NCBI RefSeq assembly: GCF_015206885.1 | Contig: NZ_JADEXY010000004.1 | Location: 1-64,000, forward strand | Reading direction: 5' to 3' | Origin: Microcystis aeruginosa LEGE 91341 | Lineage (GTDB): Bacteria; Cyanobacteriota; Cyanobacteriia; Cyanobacteriales; Microcystaceae | Length of the DNA: 64,000 bases | Shown: positions 287 to 11,086 of the stretch, one piece after another | How positions within the stretch are numbered: the first letter of the stretch is position 1 | Layout: each line of letters opens with the position of its first letter | Made by a program: the position numbers and the translations under genes | Notes under the pieces: model-generated | The model's input: the letters and a program-made list of their open reading frames with translations, nothing else | Told to the model about the DNA's origin: nothing | Databases searched by the model: none

Positions 287-377
287 ACATTTCTTAAAAC
301 TGCCCGGTTTCTAAAATAGGGTTAACCTGATTAGTCGGAGAAAATTGACCAATATTTGTATGGGGAGTTACCAACTA

Positions 378-1547
378 ATGCTTACTTCTCTTAATCGCAT
401 TTTCTCGCCTATAGTATCTGGCGTTTTGCTTACCATAATTATCTCCAGTTGTCAAGGTACAAATGTATTAACTTCGGCGAATAATTCCCAGACCAATCAA
501 TGGCAAAAAGTGACCGTAATCGAGGGTTTAGAGCATCCTTGGTCGATGGTTTGGCTACCTAAGGGGGAAATCCTCATCACAGAGCGTCCCGGTCGTTTAA
601 GAGTGGTTAGAGAGGGCAAATTAGACCCAAAAGCCATCCCTGGAGTTCCCGAAGTTTTTGCCCTCGGACAAGGAGGATTGCTGGATGTGGCAATTCATCC
701 CCAATTTGCCCAAAATCGCTGGATTTATCTAACTTATGCCCACGGAGACCAGGAGGCTAATCGTACCCGCGTCGCTCGTGCGGTTTATGATGGTGCAAGT
801 TTGCGAGATGTGCAGGTTATTTTTGAAGTTTCCCAGACAAAAACCGGCTCTCAACACTTCGGTTCGCGGTTATTATGGCTACCAGATGGCACTTTATTGG
901 TAGCAATTGGGGACGGGGGTAATCCTCCCCTACAATTAGCGGGAGATTTAATTAGAAAACAGGCACAAAATCGGCAAAGTCATTTAGGTAAAATTATCCG
1001 CATCAATGACGATGGTTCCATACCGAAAGATAATCCTTTTGCGGGTTCTAAAATTTGGAGTTATGGTCATCGGAATATTCAAGGAATCAGCTTTGATCCG
1101 ATGACTAAAAGAGTCTGGGCAACAGAACACGGAGCGAAAGGAGGGGATGAATTAAATTTAATTGAAAAAGGTAAAAATTACGGTTGGCCACTGGTTTCTG
1201 CTAGTCAAGAGTACGGCACTAATACCCCAGTTTCCCGCGAAGAATCTCGCCCCGGTCTGATCGATCCGAAAACAATTTGGACACCTGCGATCGCTCCTTC
1301 GGGATTGGTCTTTTATACCGGTAATCGCTTTCCTAATTGGCAGGGAAATTTATTCGCAGGTGGTTTAGTTTCCAGGGATATTCGTCGTCTGGAAGTGGAT
1401 AAATCGGGTGAAATTATCAATCAAGAAGCGATTCCCATCGGTCAGAGGGTGCGGGATGTGCGTCAAAGTCCCGATGGATTTTTATACCTGCTCACCGATG
1501 AAGGTAACGGCCAATTAATTCGCCTTGAACCGCTATCTAATTTGTAA
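378..1547 (+). CDS. PQQ-dependent sugar dehydrogenase-like lipoprotein (GSDH beta-propeller)
   Basis: This belongs to the soluble aldose sugar dehydrogenase/sorbosone dehydrogenase family, six-bladed beta-propellers that oxidise sugars with PQQ outside the cytoplasm. Visible family marks are L-E-H-P-W-S near the mature N-terminus, E-R-P-G-R-L-R, G-Q-G-G-L-L-D-V, Y-G-H-R-N-I-Q-G and the W-x-P-A-I-A-P-S-G segment. A hydrophobic leader ends in I-S-S-C, a plausible lipobox, so the protein is probably a membrane-anchored lipoprotein. I prefer ATG 378, preceded by GGGGAG at good spacing; a TTG at 345 would add 11 residues. Cyanobacteria often lack PQQ synthesis, so the cofactor source is open. Confidence 0.85.
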   Translation: MLTSLNRIFSPIVSGVLLTIIISSCQGTNVLTSANNSQTNQWQKVTVIEGLEHPWSMVWLPKGEILITERPGRLRVVREGKLDPKAIPGVPEVFALGQGGLLDVAIHPQFAQNRWIYLTYAHGDQEANRTRVARAVYDGASLRDVQVIFEVSQTKTGSQHFGSRLLWLPDGTLLVAIGDGGNPPLQLAGDLIRKQAQNRQSHLGKIIRINDDGSIPKDNPFAGSKIWSYGHRNIQGISFDPMTKRVWATEHGAKGGDELNLIEKGKNYGWPLVSASQEYGTNTPVSREESRPGLIDPKTIWTPAIAPSGLVFYTGNRFPNWQGNLFAGGLVSRDIRRLEVDKSGEIINQEAIPIGQRVRDVRQSPDGFLYLLTDEGNGQLIRLEPLSNL

Positions 1548-1635: not shown

Positions 1636-2535
1636 ATGAAGAAAATTTTACAGTTAGTGGGACTAGGTTGTATATTACCTATGTTCCTCGCCAGTGCAAG
1701 TTTAGCGGAAACAGTGGTAGAAAAAGTGGCTCGCACGGGATTTTTGACCGTAGGAACCCGTTTTGATGCGATTCCCTACTCCTACGTCAATGATAAGGGG
1801 GAATTGGTCGGCTATTCTATGGATGTGTTGGAACGAATTAGAAAACGATTGGAAACTCGTCTCGGTCGTCCCGTCACCCTGCAAATGATTGAAGCTAATC
1901 AACCCGGAGAGAAAATTAATCTCATTCGTAGCGGGGACATCGATATTGCTTGTAGTACGGCTTTTACTTGGGAAAGGGCGAAAGTGGTCGATTTTTCCAT
2001 CAGTTACAGCATTTCTGGGATTAGGATTTTAGCCAAAAAAGGCAGCAATCTCTCCACTCCTCAATCCCTAATCGGTAAACGTATCGCCTTGATTCCCAGT
2101 TCCGCGGCCGTGGATGTGATTAAATTAGTACAACCGCGAGCGACGATTGTGACTACCTACAGCACCGTGGAAGAAGCGATCGAAGCTTTAAAAACCGGTA
2201 AAATCGACGCAATAGCGGGGGATAGCATTTCTTTAGCGGGAACAATCCTCAGAGATAACCCTAAAATCTACGAAATCGTCCCCGAAGAAGCTCTAGCTAA
2301 TTTTGGCATTGCTTGCATGGTTCCCGAAAATAACTCTACTTTTTTGGATGATGTCAACTATGCCATTGTTAAAATGATGCAGGATTACATCACCAATGAT
2401 ACGGCCACCGTTAGTCAAATCGATCGCTGGTTCGGTAGTCAAGGCATGGTTCCCATCCCCCCAGAATTATTAAAGGGGTTTTTTGCCTTCAAAGTTATCG
2501 AACACGCCCAAATTAATCCCCAAGAAGCCAAATAG
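1636..2535 (+). CDS. grrP: GrrP-like extracellular solute-binding-type protein
   Basis: This is a 299-residue protein with a Sec signal peptide (positive start, hydrophobic core, cleavage near A-S-L-A-E around residue 25) followed by a type 3 periplasmic amino-acid-binding fold. Supporting motifs are G-x-L-x-V-G-T-R, I-P-Y-S-Y, G-Y-S-M-D-V and the D-I-A-C-S-T-A-F-T-W-E-R-A strand. No ABC permease or ATPase is adjacent. It lies 14 bp upstream of a GrrA-type glycine-rich precursor, the arrangement described for GrrP orphan binding proteins of the Grr radical-SAM peptide systems. I therefore call it GrrP rather than a transporter component. Its ligand is unknown; binding the mature GrrA product is an inference. 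Confidence 0.8.
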   Translation: MKKILQLVGLGCILPMFLASASLAETVVEKVARTGFLTVGTRFDAIPYSYVNDKGELVGYSMDVLERIRKRLETRLGRPVTLQMIEANQPGEKINLIRSGDIDIACSTAFTWERAKVVDFSISYSISGIRILAKKGSNLSTPQSLIGKRIALIPSSAAVDVIKLVQPRATIVTTYSTVEEAIEALKTGKIDAIAGDSISLAGTILRDNPKIYEIVPEEALANFGIACMVPENNSTFLDDVNYAIVKMMQDYITNDTATVSQIDRWFGSQGMVPIPPELLKGFFAFKVIEHAQINPQEAK

Positions 2536-2549
2536 GAGCATAAATTCAG

Positions 2550-2924
2550 GTGAATATCAGTAATAAAACCGGTTTAGTCGGCTTTCTTCTCGCTTTATCT
2601 GCTTTCGGTCTGACTAGCACCGCTCAGGCCGTCTCAGACGAGGCTAATCCCATTGAAGCGCGTTTAAGTCGTCTATCTAGCGCTGTACGCGAACGAGTTA
2701 ACCAACTGCCGGAAGGTACTGCCGATCCTAGTTTACAAGCTTTAGGCTGGGGAGATGGTGGCAATCGCGGTTGGGGGAATAGTCGTGCTGGTGGTTGGGT
2801 AGATGGTCGCGGTGGTAGTTTTGTTAATGCGCGGCCCTGGCGCAATGGTTGGTCTGACCGTGGCGGTTTCTTTAATTCCCGACCGCGCTGGGGTAATGGT
2901 GGCGGTTTCTTAAATCGTTGGTAA
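2550..2924 (+). CDS. grrA: GrrA-type glycine-rich RiPP precursor with nine aromatic-X-Asn/Asp motifs
   Basis: The 124-residue secreted peptide starts at GTG 2550, preceded by AGGAG. Residues 1-27 form a Sec signal peptide ending A-Q-A, and about 28-62 a charged leader-like region. The remainder is a Gly/Arg/Asn/Trp-rich core with nine aromatic-X-N/D triplets: WGD67, WGN75, WVD83, FVN91, WRN97, WSD101, FFN107, WGN114 and FLN120. The first four are exactly eight residues apart. GrrA precursors are substrates of the radical SAM enzyme GrrM, and aromatic-X-X motifs are the sites of three-residue cyclophane formation in related families. GrrP is directly upstream, but no SPASM-type GrrM is seen in the window. 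Confidence 0.85.
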   Translation: MNISNKTGLVGFLLALSAFGLTSTAQAVSDEANPIEARLSRLSSAVRERVNQLPEGTADPSLQALGWGDGGNRGWGNSRAGGWVDGRGGSFVNARPWRNGWSDRGGFFNSRPRWGNGGGFLNRW

Positions 2925-2984: not shown

Positions 2985-4088
2985 CTAGGGTTTATAGCTG
3001 GGAAAATCGATATAACCTTCCTTGTCAAAAGAATACCAATCCTTCATCTCAGCATCGGGATTAAGGGGCCAATTGTTGGCGAATCTTTCCACCAAATCGG
3101 GATTACTGATATAGGGGCGACCGAAAGCAATTAAATCCGCATCTCCTAACTGAATAGCGGCTTCAGCAGTTTCTTTTGTATAACCACAATTGCCGATTAA
3201 AGCACTATTAAAAACAGCCCGAAACTCCGATAAAAGCATCGGTTGACCCTTTTCATGAAAACCAAAAGCCAAGCCATCTAGCAGATGCAAATAAGCTAAA
3301 TTGTACTCATTTAATCTTTGGGCAATATAGAGAAAAGTTTCTCGAAAATCCTCGGAACCCATGTCATTATAAACCCCATTGGGAGACAGACGCACCCCCA
3401 CCCGATGACTGGGAAAAACAGTTAAAATTGCCTCGACTACTTCCTGTAAAAAACGATAGCGATTTTCCAAACTGCCACCGTACTTATCCTGACGCTGATT
3501 AGTAGCCGATTGTAGAAAAGTATCGATTAAATAACCATTAGCCCCGTGAATTTCTATGCCATCAAACCCCGCTAATTTTGCCCTCTGAGCGGCTTTACGG
3601 TAATCGGTGACAATTGCGGCGATTTCCTCGGTTTCTAAGGCTCTAGGGGTCTCGTAGGGCTGTTTACCTATGGGTGTATGCAACTCCCCCTTAATCTTAA
3701 TTGCGGAAGGGGCAACCGGTAAAGCCCCATTTTCCTGAAAACCGGGATGAGAAGCGCGACCACAGTGCCACAATTGACAAAAAATTGGTGTTCCTTTTCT
3801 TTGGGCGATTTTTGTCACTATTTGCCATGCTTGCGCTTGTTCGTCGGTGTAGATACCGGGGGTATTTTGCCAACCGTTAGCTTGGGGAGAAATTACCGTC
3901 GCTTCCGTAATCATTAATCCGGCGCTGGCCCTTTGCCGGTAATACTCGGCCATTATCTGATTAGCAAGACGTTTTTCTCCGGCTCGCGCTCGCGTCATGG
4001 GAGCAAGCACAAGACGATTTTCTAGGTTTAAATCTCCCAATTTAAATTGACTTAAAAGAGCCAGGGAAGTAGTGAAGGAAGTCATCAA
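2985..4088 (-). CDS. Old yellow enzyme family flavin oxidoreductase (NemA-like alkene reductase)
   Basis: This is a 367-residue FMN-dependent ene-reductase of the OYE/NemA class. It shows the standard TIM-barrel marks: L-x-N-R-L-V-L-A-P-M-T-R near the N-terminus, C-Q-L-W-H-C-G-R-A-S-H (flavin and substrate region), G-F-D-G-I-E-I-H-G-A-N-G-Y-L-I, the N-x-R-x-D-x-Y-G-G-S-L-E-N-R-x-R-F segment and I-A-F-G-R-P-Y-I-S-N-P-D at the phosphate-binding end. Length and motif order fit an intact enzyme reducing activated alkenes with NAD(P)H. It converges on grrA and is followed upstream by a long non-coding stretch, so it is probably monocistronic. Confidence 0.92.
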   Translation of the reverse strand: MMTSFTTSLALLSQFKLGDLNLENRLVLAPMTRARAGEKRLANQIMAEYYRQRASAGLMITEATVISPQANGWQNTPGIYTDEQAQAWQIVTKIAQRKGTPIFCQLWHCGRASHPGFQENGALPVAPSAIKIKGELHTPIGKQPYETPRALETEEIAAIVTDYRKAAQRAKLAGFDGIEIHGANGYLIDTFLQSATNQRQDKYGGSLENRYRFLQEVVEAILTVFPSHRVGVRLSPNGVYNDMGSEDFRETFLYIAQRLNEYNLAYLHLLDGLAFGFHEKGQPMLLSEFRAVFNSALIGNCGYTKETAEAAIQLGDADLIAFGRPYISNPDLVERFANNWPLNPDAEMKDWYSFDKEGYIDFPSYKP

Positions 4089-4882: not shown

Positions 4883-6448
4883 ATGAAAGCCCTATTACTG
4901 TGGCCGCTGATGCCCAACTCCTTTTGGTCCTATCAAGAGACTTTAGATCTAGCCGGTTTAAGATCAACTAATCCGCCCCTGGGTTTAATTACGGTGGCAG
5001 CCCTGTTACCATCGGATTGGGAAATCCGGTTTGTTGATCGCAATGTCCGATTAGAAACAGCTTCGGATTGGGAGTGGTGCGATTTGGTAATCATCTCCGC
5101 CATGATCATTCAGAAAAAGGACTTTCAAGAATTGATTGCCAAAGGATTGCAGTTGGGTAAAAAAGTGGCTGTAGGCGGGCCTTACCCCACCTCCTATCCA
5201 GAAGTTGCCCAAAAAGCCGGGGCAGATTACCTGATTCTCGATGAAGGGGAACTGACAATCCCGCTGTTCCTGGCAGCCCTGGAGCGGGGTGAACCGAGTG
5301 GTGTCTTTAGAGCCAGCGAGAAACCCGATGTCACCATGACACCGATCGCCCGCTATGATCTACTGGATCTGGATGCTTATCTGGCGATTACCGTGCAGTT
5401 TTCTCGCGGTTGCCCCTTTCAATGCGAATTTTGTGACATCATCAACCTTTATGGCCGCAAACCGCGCACCAAAACCCCAGAACAAATGTTGGCTGAGTTG
5501 GAGACGTTATATCAACTGGGCTGGAGGCGCTACATTTTTGTTGTGGATGACAACTTCATTGGCAATAAGCGGAATGCCAAGGTGTTTCTGCGGGAGTTGA
5601 TTCCCTGGATGGAGCAACACCAGTATCCCTTTAAACTGATTACGGAAGCTTCCCTTAATCTGGCCGAAGACAGTGAACTGATTGAGTTAATGGTCAAGGC
5701 TGGCTTTATGCTGGTGTTTATGGGGATTGAGACACCAGATACCGATAGTTTAATGGGCATCAACAAGGTTCAAAACACCCGCCAATCCCTGATCGAATCC
5801 TGTCACAAAATTACCCGCATGGGGCTGCAGATTATGTCTGGCTTCATTATCGGTTTTGACAATGAGAAATCTGGCGCAGGGCAGCGGATCAAAGAGTTTA
5901 TTATGGAGGCAAGTATTCCCCAAGGGCAGTTTAGCCTGCTCCAGGCCCTGCAAAATACCGCCCTGTGGAATCGTCTGCAACAGGAAGGTCGTCTGGTGGA
6001 TGGCATGGGTACTTTCCATCAGGGAGCGATGATGAACTTTGAGCCAACTCGCCCGGTGGAAGAGATTACCGAAGAATACATCGATGCTTTCTGGGAAATC
6101 TACGATCCTGTTAACTACCTGAAACGAACCTTCAACCATTTTATGATCATGGGGGGATGGCGCGGCAAATCGAACCGTAAATTAGATGGGCAACAGTGGC
6201 AATTGTTCCGCTCCTTGCTCTGGCGACAGGGGATTGTCCGACCGACGCGGTTCCGTTTCTGGTGGCAACTGGCAGTGATTGCCTGGGTCAAACCCCGTCT
6301 GCTAGAAGAGTATCTAGCGACCCTAGGGATAGGTGAGCATTTTTTTGCCTATCGCTATGAAGTCAGAGAACAATTACTAAAACAACTAGCCGATTTAAAG
6401 CAACAGAAAGCAAGGGTAGCCCAGCTGGAAAAAACGCTCAAAAGCTAG
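4883..6448 (+). CDS. B12-binding radical SAM protein of the HpnP-like DUF4070 family
   Basis: The 521-residue protein has an N-terminal cobalamin-binding domain (about 1-140), a radical SAM core whose cluster cysteines are Cys177, Cys181 and Cys184 (C-P-F-Q-C-E-F-C), and a C-terminal DUF4070-type region. The N-terminal S-F-W-S-Y-Q-E-T-L, N-P-P-L-G-L-I-T-V-A-A-L-L-P and G-G-P-Y-P-T-S stretches are very like the hopanoid C-2 methylase HpnP family, whose members methylate using B12 and SAM. Cyanobacteria carry several paralogues, so 2-methylhopanoid synthesis is possible but not proven. The ATG at 4883 follows GGAGACACCTGA. The C-terminal 30 residues look like a coiled coil. Confidence 0.88.
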   Translation: MKALLLWPLMPNSFWSYQETLDLAGLRSTNPPLGLITVAALLPSDWEIRFVDRNVRLETASDWEWCDLVIISAMIIQKKDFQELIAKGLQLGKKVAVGGPYPTSYPEVAQKAGADYLILDEGELTIPLFLAALERGEPSGVFRASEKPDVTMTPIARYDLLDLDAYLAITVQFSRGCPFQCEFCDIINLYGRKPRTKTPEQMLAELETLYQLGWRRYIFVVDDNFIGNKRNAKVFLRELIPWMEQHQYPFKLITEASLNLAEDSELIELMVKAGFMLVFMGIETPDTDSLMGINKVQNTRQSLIESCHKITRMGLQIMSGFIIGFDNEKSGAGQRIKEFIMEASIPQGQFSLLQALQNTALWNRLQQEGRLVDGMGTFHQGAMMNFEPTRPVEEITEEYIDAFWEIYDPVNYLKRTFNHFMIMGGWRGKSNRKLDGQQWQLFRSLLWRQGIVRPTRFRFWWQLAVIAWVKPRLLEEYLATLGIGEHFFAYRYEVREQLLKQLADLKQQKARVAQLEKTLKS

Positions 6449-8488: not shown

Positions 8489-10390
8489 TTAAAATAACAG
8501 ATCTGCCGCGCCTTTTACCCGGGCTAGAGGTTCTACTGATCGGGGTAAACTGGCTAAGCGGATCAAAGTTTGCTCGGGGAATAAATCCTGATCAATTTCC
8601 TCATTAGCATGATAACGATTCTGCACGACGTAACGTTGATAGACTCCCATTTTTTTCAAAGATGCTGTCAATCGCACTTGTTCGGCAACGATGACATCTT
8701 GGGCTTGCAAAACTCCAATAAATTCTGTATGTTGGGGGTCTTTGAGTTTTTTCTGAGCAGACATCACCTGTTGTCTTAAGGTTCGCAATCGTCCCATTAA
8801 ATCTACACGCCCTAAGACATTTTGATATTTCATCCAAAGCTTAAAAATCCAACTTAACCAATCTCCTAAAGCCGTTGGCATTTCCAAAAATCGCAGGAGA
8901 TGACCGGTAGGAGCCGTATCTAAAATAATCAAATCTTGTTCTTTCTGGTCTAATAACTCCATTACTTTTACTAGAGACAACATTTCATCAATTCCTGGCA
9001 GAGATTGAGATACAATTTGTCGCCAAGCTTCTGGAGTATAAGCTAGTTTGATGTTCCCTTCTTCCTTACCTTCACCACTAATCATTTCTGCCAGTTCCCA
9101 TAAATAATCATCCCGAAATTTTTCTAAAACGATATTAGCATCAACTTCTTGACCACTTAAATTATCAGTTAATTGTGTAGATTGATGTCCTAATTTTGTC
9201 CCAAAGGCATCTCCCAAAGAATGAGCAGGATCAATAGAAATAATTCTAATTTTTTGATCGGGATGACGATTAGCTAACGCCCAACCAATGGCCGCAGCAA
9301 CGGTGGTTTTTCCCACACCTCCCTTGCCACCAATGATAATGAGTTGGCGTTTGTCGTCAATAAAATCACTAAAACTAGGCAGAATTTTTTGCGGCCATTG
9401 AATAGGAGGCGGCGCAATAAATTCTACTTGTTCGAGGATTTTAATTTGACTCATGATCTGATCTAATGCTTCACCTCCTAGGGGTTCTTTTGCCTGTTGA
9501 GGCAGGGTAAAAATTGTCTCCTGACCTGGAATTTTTAGGAATTTATCGAGGAGTTGCTGTTGCTCACTGTAGCGATCTAAATTTTGATTAGGATCCGTTA
9601 GAATGCGATTGATAAATAAGCAGCCGCAGGGAATATTTAAGTGACGCAAACTATTGAGTAATCGTTCGGTTTCTAATAAACTCATCGGTTCGGCAATTGC
9701 CACAATTAAACAAAGGGTAAAATCCCTATTTTGTAGGAGTTGTTTGCCTTCGCTTAATTCTGATTTTGTTTTGACTAAAAAGTCGTCCACATCATCGGCA
9801 TTGTAGGTTTTTGCAAAAGTTTGCGAAATAACACGATGTTTTTCTTGAAACAGCTCTAAAGAATTGAGAATAATCTCTAAAAAGTCTTTAATTTCCAATA
9901 AATTTAAGGTATGACCAGAGGGGGCCATATCAACAACAATTCGATCTACAACATTCTCTATTAGTAATCGTTGAATTTCTAATAGACCCATGATTTCATC
10001 TAAACCTGGCCAGTCTAAATCCCAAACAGGAGTTAGATCTTCTCCTTCAACAAAACTGCCCCGTTCTACTAAAAGTTCTAAAAATTTTCCGTATTTTTCT
10101 TTAAATTCTAAGAGCAATTTTTCCGCATCTAATGCCCTAACTTTTAAGTTAGGTAAGTCTTTTACAGGTAATGCCTCATCGCTAACTTCTGTTTGCAATA
10201 CATCCCCTAAAGAGTGAGCGGGATCGGTTGAGATTAACAGGATTTGTTCCTCTGGAAATAATTTAGCCCAACGGCGAGCAAATCCACAGGAAAGAGTGGT
10301 TTTTCCCACTCCTCCTTTGCCGCTAAACATAACTAAATGTCGAGTGTCATAACGACTTAGAGAGTTATTTGCCAAGTTAAAGTTAGTCAT
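8489..10390 (-). CDS. Double-domain ArsA/Get3-like ATPase in the gas vesicle cluster
   Basis: The 633-residue protein is a tandem duplication of the ArsA/Get3 (TRC40) deviant-Walker ATPase. Each half has a G-K-G-G-V-G-K-T-T P-loop (near residues 24 and 355), a D-P-A-H-S-L-G-D switch I and an A-P-(S/T)-G-H-x-L-x-x-L-E switch II. I see neither an arsenite permease or regulator nearby nor the Get3 C-x-x-C zinc motif. It starts 12 bp after the gvpW stop. Get3 proteins shield hydrophobic tail-anchor segments, so a role in handling hydrophobic GvpA is a reasonable inference. Arsenic efflux is less likely in this context. Confidence 0.9.
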   Translation of the reverse strand: MTNFNLANNSLSRYDTRHLVMFSGKGGVGKTTLSCGFARRWAKLFPEEQILLISTDPAHSLGDVLQTEVSDEALPVKDLPNLKVRALDAEKLLLEFKEKYGKFLELLVERGSFVEGEDLTPVWDLDWPGLDEIMGLLEIQRLLIENVVDRIVVDMAPSGHTLNLLEIKDFLEIILNSLELFQEKHRVISQTFAKTYNADDVDDFLVKTKSELSEGKQLLQNRDFTLCLIVAIAEPMSLLETERLLNSLRHLNIPCGCLFINRILTDPNQNLDRYSEQQQLLDKFLKIPGQETIFTLPQQAKEPLGGEALDQIMSQIKILEQVEFIAPPPIQWPQKILPSFSDFIDDKRQLIIIGGKGGVGKTTVAAAIGWALANRHPDQKIRIISIDPAHSLGDAFGTKLGHQSTQLTDNLSGQEVDANIVLEKFRDDYLWELAEMISGEGKEEGNIKLAYTPEAWRQIVSQSLPGIDEMLSLVKVMELLDQKEQDLIILDTAPTGHLLRFLEMPTALGDWLSWIFKLWMKYQNVLGRVDLMGRLRTLRQQVMSAQKKLKDPQHTEFIGVLQAQDVIVAEQVRLTASLKKMGVYQRYVVQNRYHANEEIDQDLFPEQTLIRLASLPRSVEPLARVKGAADLLF

Positions 10391-10402
10391 AGAGAAATCA
10401 AG

Positions 10403-11086
10403 TTAAGTAAAGTGATAGGGGGGAGAAACTTGTCCTAATTGTAATTCCCAACGAGGACAGGCTTTCTGCCAATGCAAGACTCGCTCGATTAGTAAAGGTT
10501 CCTCTTGAAAATTAACTAAAAGATAAATTCTTGATTCTGTCCCCGGAGCAGTAATAATCTTCGTTGATGGATAGCTTTGGTTGATTAAATCCACGAGATT
10601 TTGCCATTCTAGACCTTGCAAAGTATAAAAATCTTGTTGGGCTTCATAAAGCTGTTTTTTGGCTAAAAAATATTGTCTGCCCTTGCTTTCAGAAGAGAGT
10701 ACAGGCTCCTCTGGCTTACGGGGAATACATTTTAAAAGATATTCTCCTTTTCCCTCAAGTTCTTCAATTTTTTCTTGATATTCTTGGGCATGAGAACAAA
10801 GATGAGTCAGTAAATTTTCTGCCTCTAAAAAAGATGTGCCAAAACGTAAGGGTAAAATAGTGGTTTGTTGAAATAGTTCACAGATAACTCGATCATGACA
10901 TAAAACCGATTGAATCAAGCGTTCATCATCATTTTGTAAAGTGTCTAAACCAACTTCGGGTTCGACTACGGCCGAGAGAGAGCCACCAGTTATCAGTAAC
11001 AATGGGTTAGCCATTCCAACGGGTAATTTTAGGCTTTCTATGGGGGTTTTCAAAAAAGCGTAAGTATATAGATTGTACAATTTCAT
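10403..11086 (-). CDS. gvpW: GvpF/GvpL family gas vesicle protein (gvpW position)
   Basis: The 227-residue protein begins M-K-L-Y-N-L-Y-T-Y-A-F and contains the GvpL/GvpF signature region with a conserved H-D-R-V-I followed by T-I-L-P-L-R-F-G-T, just as in gvpF at 11913. GvpF/L proteins bind GvpA and act in nucleation of vesicle assembly. Its place after gvpV at the end of the cluster matches the gene called gvpW in other cyanobacteria. It heads a probable operon with the ArsA-like and CDC48-like genes (12 bp and 83 bp gaps). Its promoter must lie in the 92 bp divergent region shared with gvpV, unless read-through from gvpG occurs. Confidence 0.8.
   Translation of the reverse strand: MKLYNLYTYAFLKTPIESLKLPVGMANPLLLITGGSLSAVVEPEVGLDTLQNDDERLIQSVLCHDRVICELFQQTTILPLRFGTSFLEAENLLTHLCSHAQEYQEKIEELEGKGEYLLKCIPRKPEEPVLSSESKGRQYFLAKKQLYEAQQDFYTLQGLEWQNLVDLINQSYPSTKIITAPGTESRIYLLVNFQEEPLLIERVLHWQKACPRWELQLGQVSPPYHFT

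Follow-up and report, generated by a model that had tools for sequence, protein, structure and literature searches.

A probable GrrA/GrrM triceptide system with separated precursor and maturase genes in Microcystis aeruginosa LEGE 91341

The radical SAM maturase OscB (InterPro family IPR026357) forms bonds from Trp C7 to the C-beta of Asn or Asp and from Phe C4 to the C-beta of Asn (PMC11002830). In NCBIfam the precursor model TIGR04260 currently bears the title 'GrrA/OscA1 family cyclophane-containing rSAM-modified RiPP' and the maturase model TIGR04261 'GrrM/OscB'; a literature search on GrrA and GrrM returned no papers, the primary OscB papers lying outside its apparent coverage. The commonest layout in genera other than Microcystis was grrA adjoining grrM, usually together with grrP. 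All three genes were adjacent in genomes G113, G166 and G280, and a motif-rich ORF adjoined grrM at most of 80 named loci. Neither in M. aeruginosa LEGE 91341 nor across Microcystis was grrM located next to grrA. GrrA and GrrM constitute a known kind of modified-peptide system, the genes of which are now separated, and precursor, GrrP partner and one intact maturase coexist in one genome. GrrA is very probably an ordinary multi-site triceptide precursor that is matured in trans by the distant GrrM and exported via Sec.

The stretch of DNA analysed here (64,000 nucleotides, called the window) harbored grrA at positions 2550-2924 of the forward strand. It encodes a 124-residue precursor of the GrrA/OscA1 family from a GTG start, which was kept in 11 Microcystis orthologues. 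Assignment as a GrrA precursor, already proposed from the sequence in the original prediction, was upheld by a full-length match to TIGR04260 (94.4 bits, cut-off 31, positions 1-118 of 118), and no other sequence of the LEGE 91341 genome scored above this cut-off. The protein displayed both a signal-like N-terminus and a Gly-rich core with aromatic-X-(N/D) repeats, as expected from the family. The signal peptide (2550-2630, residues 1-27), predicted by eye and from hydropathy, would be of the Sec/signal peptidase I type, with cleavage between LVGFLLALSAFGLTSTAQA and V and a mean Kyte-Doolittle value of 2.25 over residues 9-20. Weak matches to TIGR04260 elsewhere in Microcystis genomes were mostly low-complexity repeats of the WGNGEMGK type and were discarded as precursors.

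The core (2745-2921, residues 66-124) contained all nine of the aromatic-X-Asn/Asp triplets first noted: WGD, WGN, WVD, FVN and WRN starting at residues 67, 75, 83, 91 and 97, followed by WSD, FFN, WGN and FLN at 101, 107, 114 and 120. Successive starts were 8, 8, 8, 6, 4, 6, 7 and 6 residues apart, the first four motifs displaying exactly the eight-residue spacing described for them. These motifs took up nine of the 11 aromatic residues and nine of the ten N/D residues of the core. Shuffling of the 59-residue core (100,000 trials) produced 1.8 motifs on average, at most seven and never nine, so that the nine motifs are not due to chance. Relatives of GrrA contained from five to 12 motifs, so that nine is unexceptional.

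Comparison of 11 Microcystis orthologues revealed no variation at any of the 18 putative cross-link positions (the aromatic and the N/D residue of each motif), whereas three of the nine middle residues and 10 of the 32 core linker residues were variable. Swaps were of the kind WGN/WVN, WVD/WGD/WAD and WRN/WGN. Judged from these alignments, the fixed positions are those predicted for cross-link sites; loss of motifs in close orthologues, which the original prediction had named as evidence against itself, was not seen. This invariance does not amount to a formal selection test, because codons for Trp, Asn, Asp and Phe leave little synonymous room.

Two genomes of the genus departed from this picture. 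In G007 grrM was intact, but grrA was interrupted by an insert of about 100 bases (L059:2369-2480), and in G002 GrrA retained all nine motifs while GrrM was not found. It could accordingly be supposed that Microcystis GrrA is no longer modified, separation of grrM being a step of decay and the motifs persisting by recent ancestry. Decay would however be expected to hit GrrA positions at random, in contrast to the 18 fixed positions surrounded by changing ones, and GrrM was intact in 11 of the 12 Microcystis genomes, which renders this reading distinctly unlikely. That proportion also answers the concern, raised beforehand, that GrrA-bearing genomes might lack GrrM altogether. G002 lacked the entire mltA-grrM region (at least 7.3 kb), whether through a sizeable deletion or through incomplete assembly, and since the whole neighborhood is absent its use as a natural grrM knockout would be unsafe. 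The insert in G007 looked mobile-element-like; an identical 117-base copy was located upstream of the dehydrogenase gene in G002 (L058:1340-1456).

A profile search with TIGR04261 detected no GrrM gene within the 64-kb window, in line with the absence of the maturase from the grrA flanks noted at the outset. Extended to the whole assembly (4.49 Mb in 280 contigs, 99.97 % complete), the genome-wide search that had been called for yielded a single intact gene, located on a different contig (C237:31557-32645) and scoring 627 bits (cut-off 310). Its ORF encodes 386 amino acids (L002:11501-12661) and lies 78 nt downstream of a co-oriented gene resembling that of murein transglycosylase A, for which 'mltA' is a best-match name since its 155 bits fall under the curated cut-off of 242. 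The CxxxCxxC motif of GrrM (C26, C30 and C33) was invariant in 48 out of 48 relatives, and its SPASM cysteines C332, C336, C342 and C365 were kept in 47 of the 48. A join of contigs C237 and C13, in which grrM and grrP lie about 3 kb and 1.6 kb from the respective ends, was considered and rejected because grrM and grrA are megabases apart in near-closed relatives.

The place of the 'missing' maturase is hence settled: it is encoded in the same genome at a distant locus. Two options had been put forward for it, and the one invoking another locus gained support from the single intact GrrM and from the unlinked position of grrM in the genus and the co-occurrence described below, while recourse to an unrelated enzyme was found unsupported and unnecessary. 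One candidate for such an enzyme near grrA is a B12-binding radical SAM protein (4883-6448, forward strand; B12-binding, Radical_SAM and DUF4070 domains), encoded about 2 kb downstream of grrA and likewise close to the old yellow enzyme gene in G009. This protein matched no SPASM-type peptide maturase and passed no NCBIfam cut-off among the matches listed. Its gene was not found at the grrA loci of other genera (regions of 7-12 kb compared), and a true GrrM is present in the genome; modification of GrrA by this or another neighboring enzyme is therefore most improbable.

Synteny comparison, also suggested originally, indicated that linkage between grrM and grrA is lacking across the whole genus Microcystis. 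On single contigs of near-closed genomes the two genes were separated by 1.36 Mb (G001), 2.78 Mb (G009) and 0.56 Mb (G011). Wherever other Microcystis genomes carry the mltA-grrM pair, its DNA is about 95-97 % identical, and at the named Microcystis loci L132-L134 MltA was encoded upstream of grrM, the precursor not being beside it. Among the 51 GrrA genomes of the order, grrM was found within 5 kb of grrA in 31, on one contig with it but at a long distance in four, and on another contig in 15, a class that may include breaks of draft assemblies (in G153 and G198, for example, a gene lies at a contig end); in one genome it was not found. In a GrrM tree, several deep branches of which were weakly supported, sequences from Microcystis and from G018 nested among linked relatives and those of family f5 were set apart from both. 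This placement implies at least three separations, in Microcystis, in Roseofilum (family f5, genus g42) and in G018.

Distribution of the two proteins was strongly associated. Among 293 genomes of the order, 50 carried both, five GrrM only, one GrrA only and 237 neither (Fisher p about 2e-49, shared ancestry being ignored). In at least two of the five GrrM-only genomes, G273 (with FGDFAD repeats) and G279, a divergent short ORF resembling a precursor, rich in aromatic-X-N/D motifs but scoring below the GrrA model, was located near grrM. Precursor-like repeat ORFs were found beside grrM-like genes at L165, L170, L172, L177, L191, L199 and L206; their repeats were either W-type (WNNWDNWGN) or FGDFGD/FDDFDD, dense in aromatic-X-N/D and unlike the Gly-rich GrrA. 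In G001 a further GrrM-like gene (598 bits, 51 % identity; L060:8644-9825, reverse strand) was adjoined by two secreted-looking ORFs (L060:9991-10308 and 10357-10701, both on the reverse strand), which displayed W-X-N/D motifs at their ends, were missed by TIGR04260 and possibly represent a divergent precursor subfamily.

Maturases of the wider GrrM family act on varied precursors and, as in G001, a GrrM-like gene may be accompanied by precursor-like ORFs of its own, which raises the question whether the unlinked grrM serves some other precursor, its match with GrrA being coincidental. GrrA alone passed the family cut-off in the LEGE 91341 genome, however, and the flanks of three named Microcystis grrM loci contained no ORF rich in aromatic-X-N/D motifs. 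Service to another precursor is accordingly very unlikely, and GrrA is retained here as the probable substrate.

The GrrP partner anticipated beside grrA was confirmed at 1636-2535 (forward strand; TIGR04262, 281 bits against 190; PF00497). This secreted solute-binding-like protein (SBP_bac_3) is encoded upstream of grrA with a gap of 14 nt, and grrP was found beside grrA in 43 of the 51 grrA-bearing genomes of the order. It remained there in Microcystis and in G018, while in family f5 all three genes were apart. Retention of grrP by grrA upon departure of grrM suggests that GrrP and GrrA act together after export. An Arg/Asp pair characteristic of proteins that bind amino acids was retained in GrrP: Arg114 and Asp196 showed conservation of at least 95 % across 38 sequences and align with positions that contact the ligand in amino-acid-binding relatives of this fold. 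GrrP may therefore bind a small ligand or a peptide end. A second GrrP-like protein of about 215 bits (G000:C214:16638-17414 and equivalents) was present in most Microcystis genomes and in relatives devoid of GrrA. It is likely a paralogue, and TIGR04262 alone is for this reason no marker of the system.

The remaining neighbors were those originally named. A glucose/sorbosone dehydrogenase-like gene (375-1547, forward strand; PF07995, 430 bits) lies upstream and also neighbors the grrA locus in several Microcystis genomes; the old yellow enzyme (FMN oxidoreductase) gene (2985-4088, reverse strand; PF00724, 263 bits) is convergent with grrA. Synteny and family matches gave no sign of a role in the GrrA system for either of them. 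In G001 the dehydrogenase gene upstream of grrP was in pieces (L061:590-3552), grrP and grrA being intact.

By analogy with OscB, GrrM would be a radical SAM/SPASM 3-CyFE that modifies GrrA in trans in the cytoplasm, joining the ring of Trp or Phe to the C-beta of the Asn or Asp two residues further on. All nine motifs belong to the W-X-N, W-X-D and F-X-N kinds bonded by OscB, and up to nine sites could thus be cross-linked, the number actually modified possibly being lower. The cross-linked peptide would then leave via Sec by means of its own signal peptide, cytoplasmic cross-linking before export being the simplest order because GrrA carries such a peptide, and might meet GrrP in the periplasm. 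The most likely guess is that the product is secreted or sits at the surface and is handled there by GrrP. Under a more far-reaching reading, the separation of grrM, repeated in Microcystis, Roseofilum and another lineage, would be adaptive: maturation could be controlled independently of the supply of precursor, grrM being placed behind the cell-wall gene mltA in Microcystis, and GrrP would recognise a nine-ring peptide with a surface or signalling function. This reading appears unlikely.

GrrA, GrrM and GrrP belong to families that are already annotated; the conserved separation of grrM from grrA is informative, and precedents exist, for example among prochlorosins (PMC10783134). RiPP mining that relies on gene clusters would overlook or mis-assign GrrA and GrrM across the bloom-forming genus Microcystis, where they offer a directly testable pair of one precursor and one maturase, proposed to act in trans. 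Maturases XncB, MscB, YhhB and AmcB share with GrrM the same class of radical SAM/SPASM cyclophane chemistry, but GrrM scored under the cut-offs of AmcB (288 against 425) and YhhB (147 against 445). ProcM works in trans on its ProcA precursors. Like GrrA and GrrM, prochlorosins (ProcA/ProcM) are a cyanobacterial RiPP system whose modifying enzyme may be encoded at a distance from the precursors, most ProcM-like enzymes being singletons (PMC10783134); they differ by their lanthionine chemistry and by one promiscuous ProcM serving many precursors, as opposed to one GrrM and one GrrA. OscA/OscB (TIGR04260/TIGR04261, IPR026357) is a further close system: precursor and maturase both passed the curated cut-offs over their full length, the motifs fit the bonds formed by OscB (PMC11002830), GrrP is present, and nine motifs, four of them regularly spaced, fall within the family range. 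The Microcystis system differs from OscA/OscB in that grrM, instead of adjoining grrA, is unlinked and located next to mltA.
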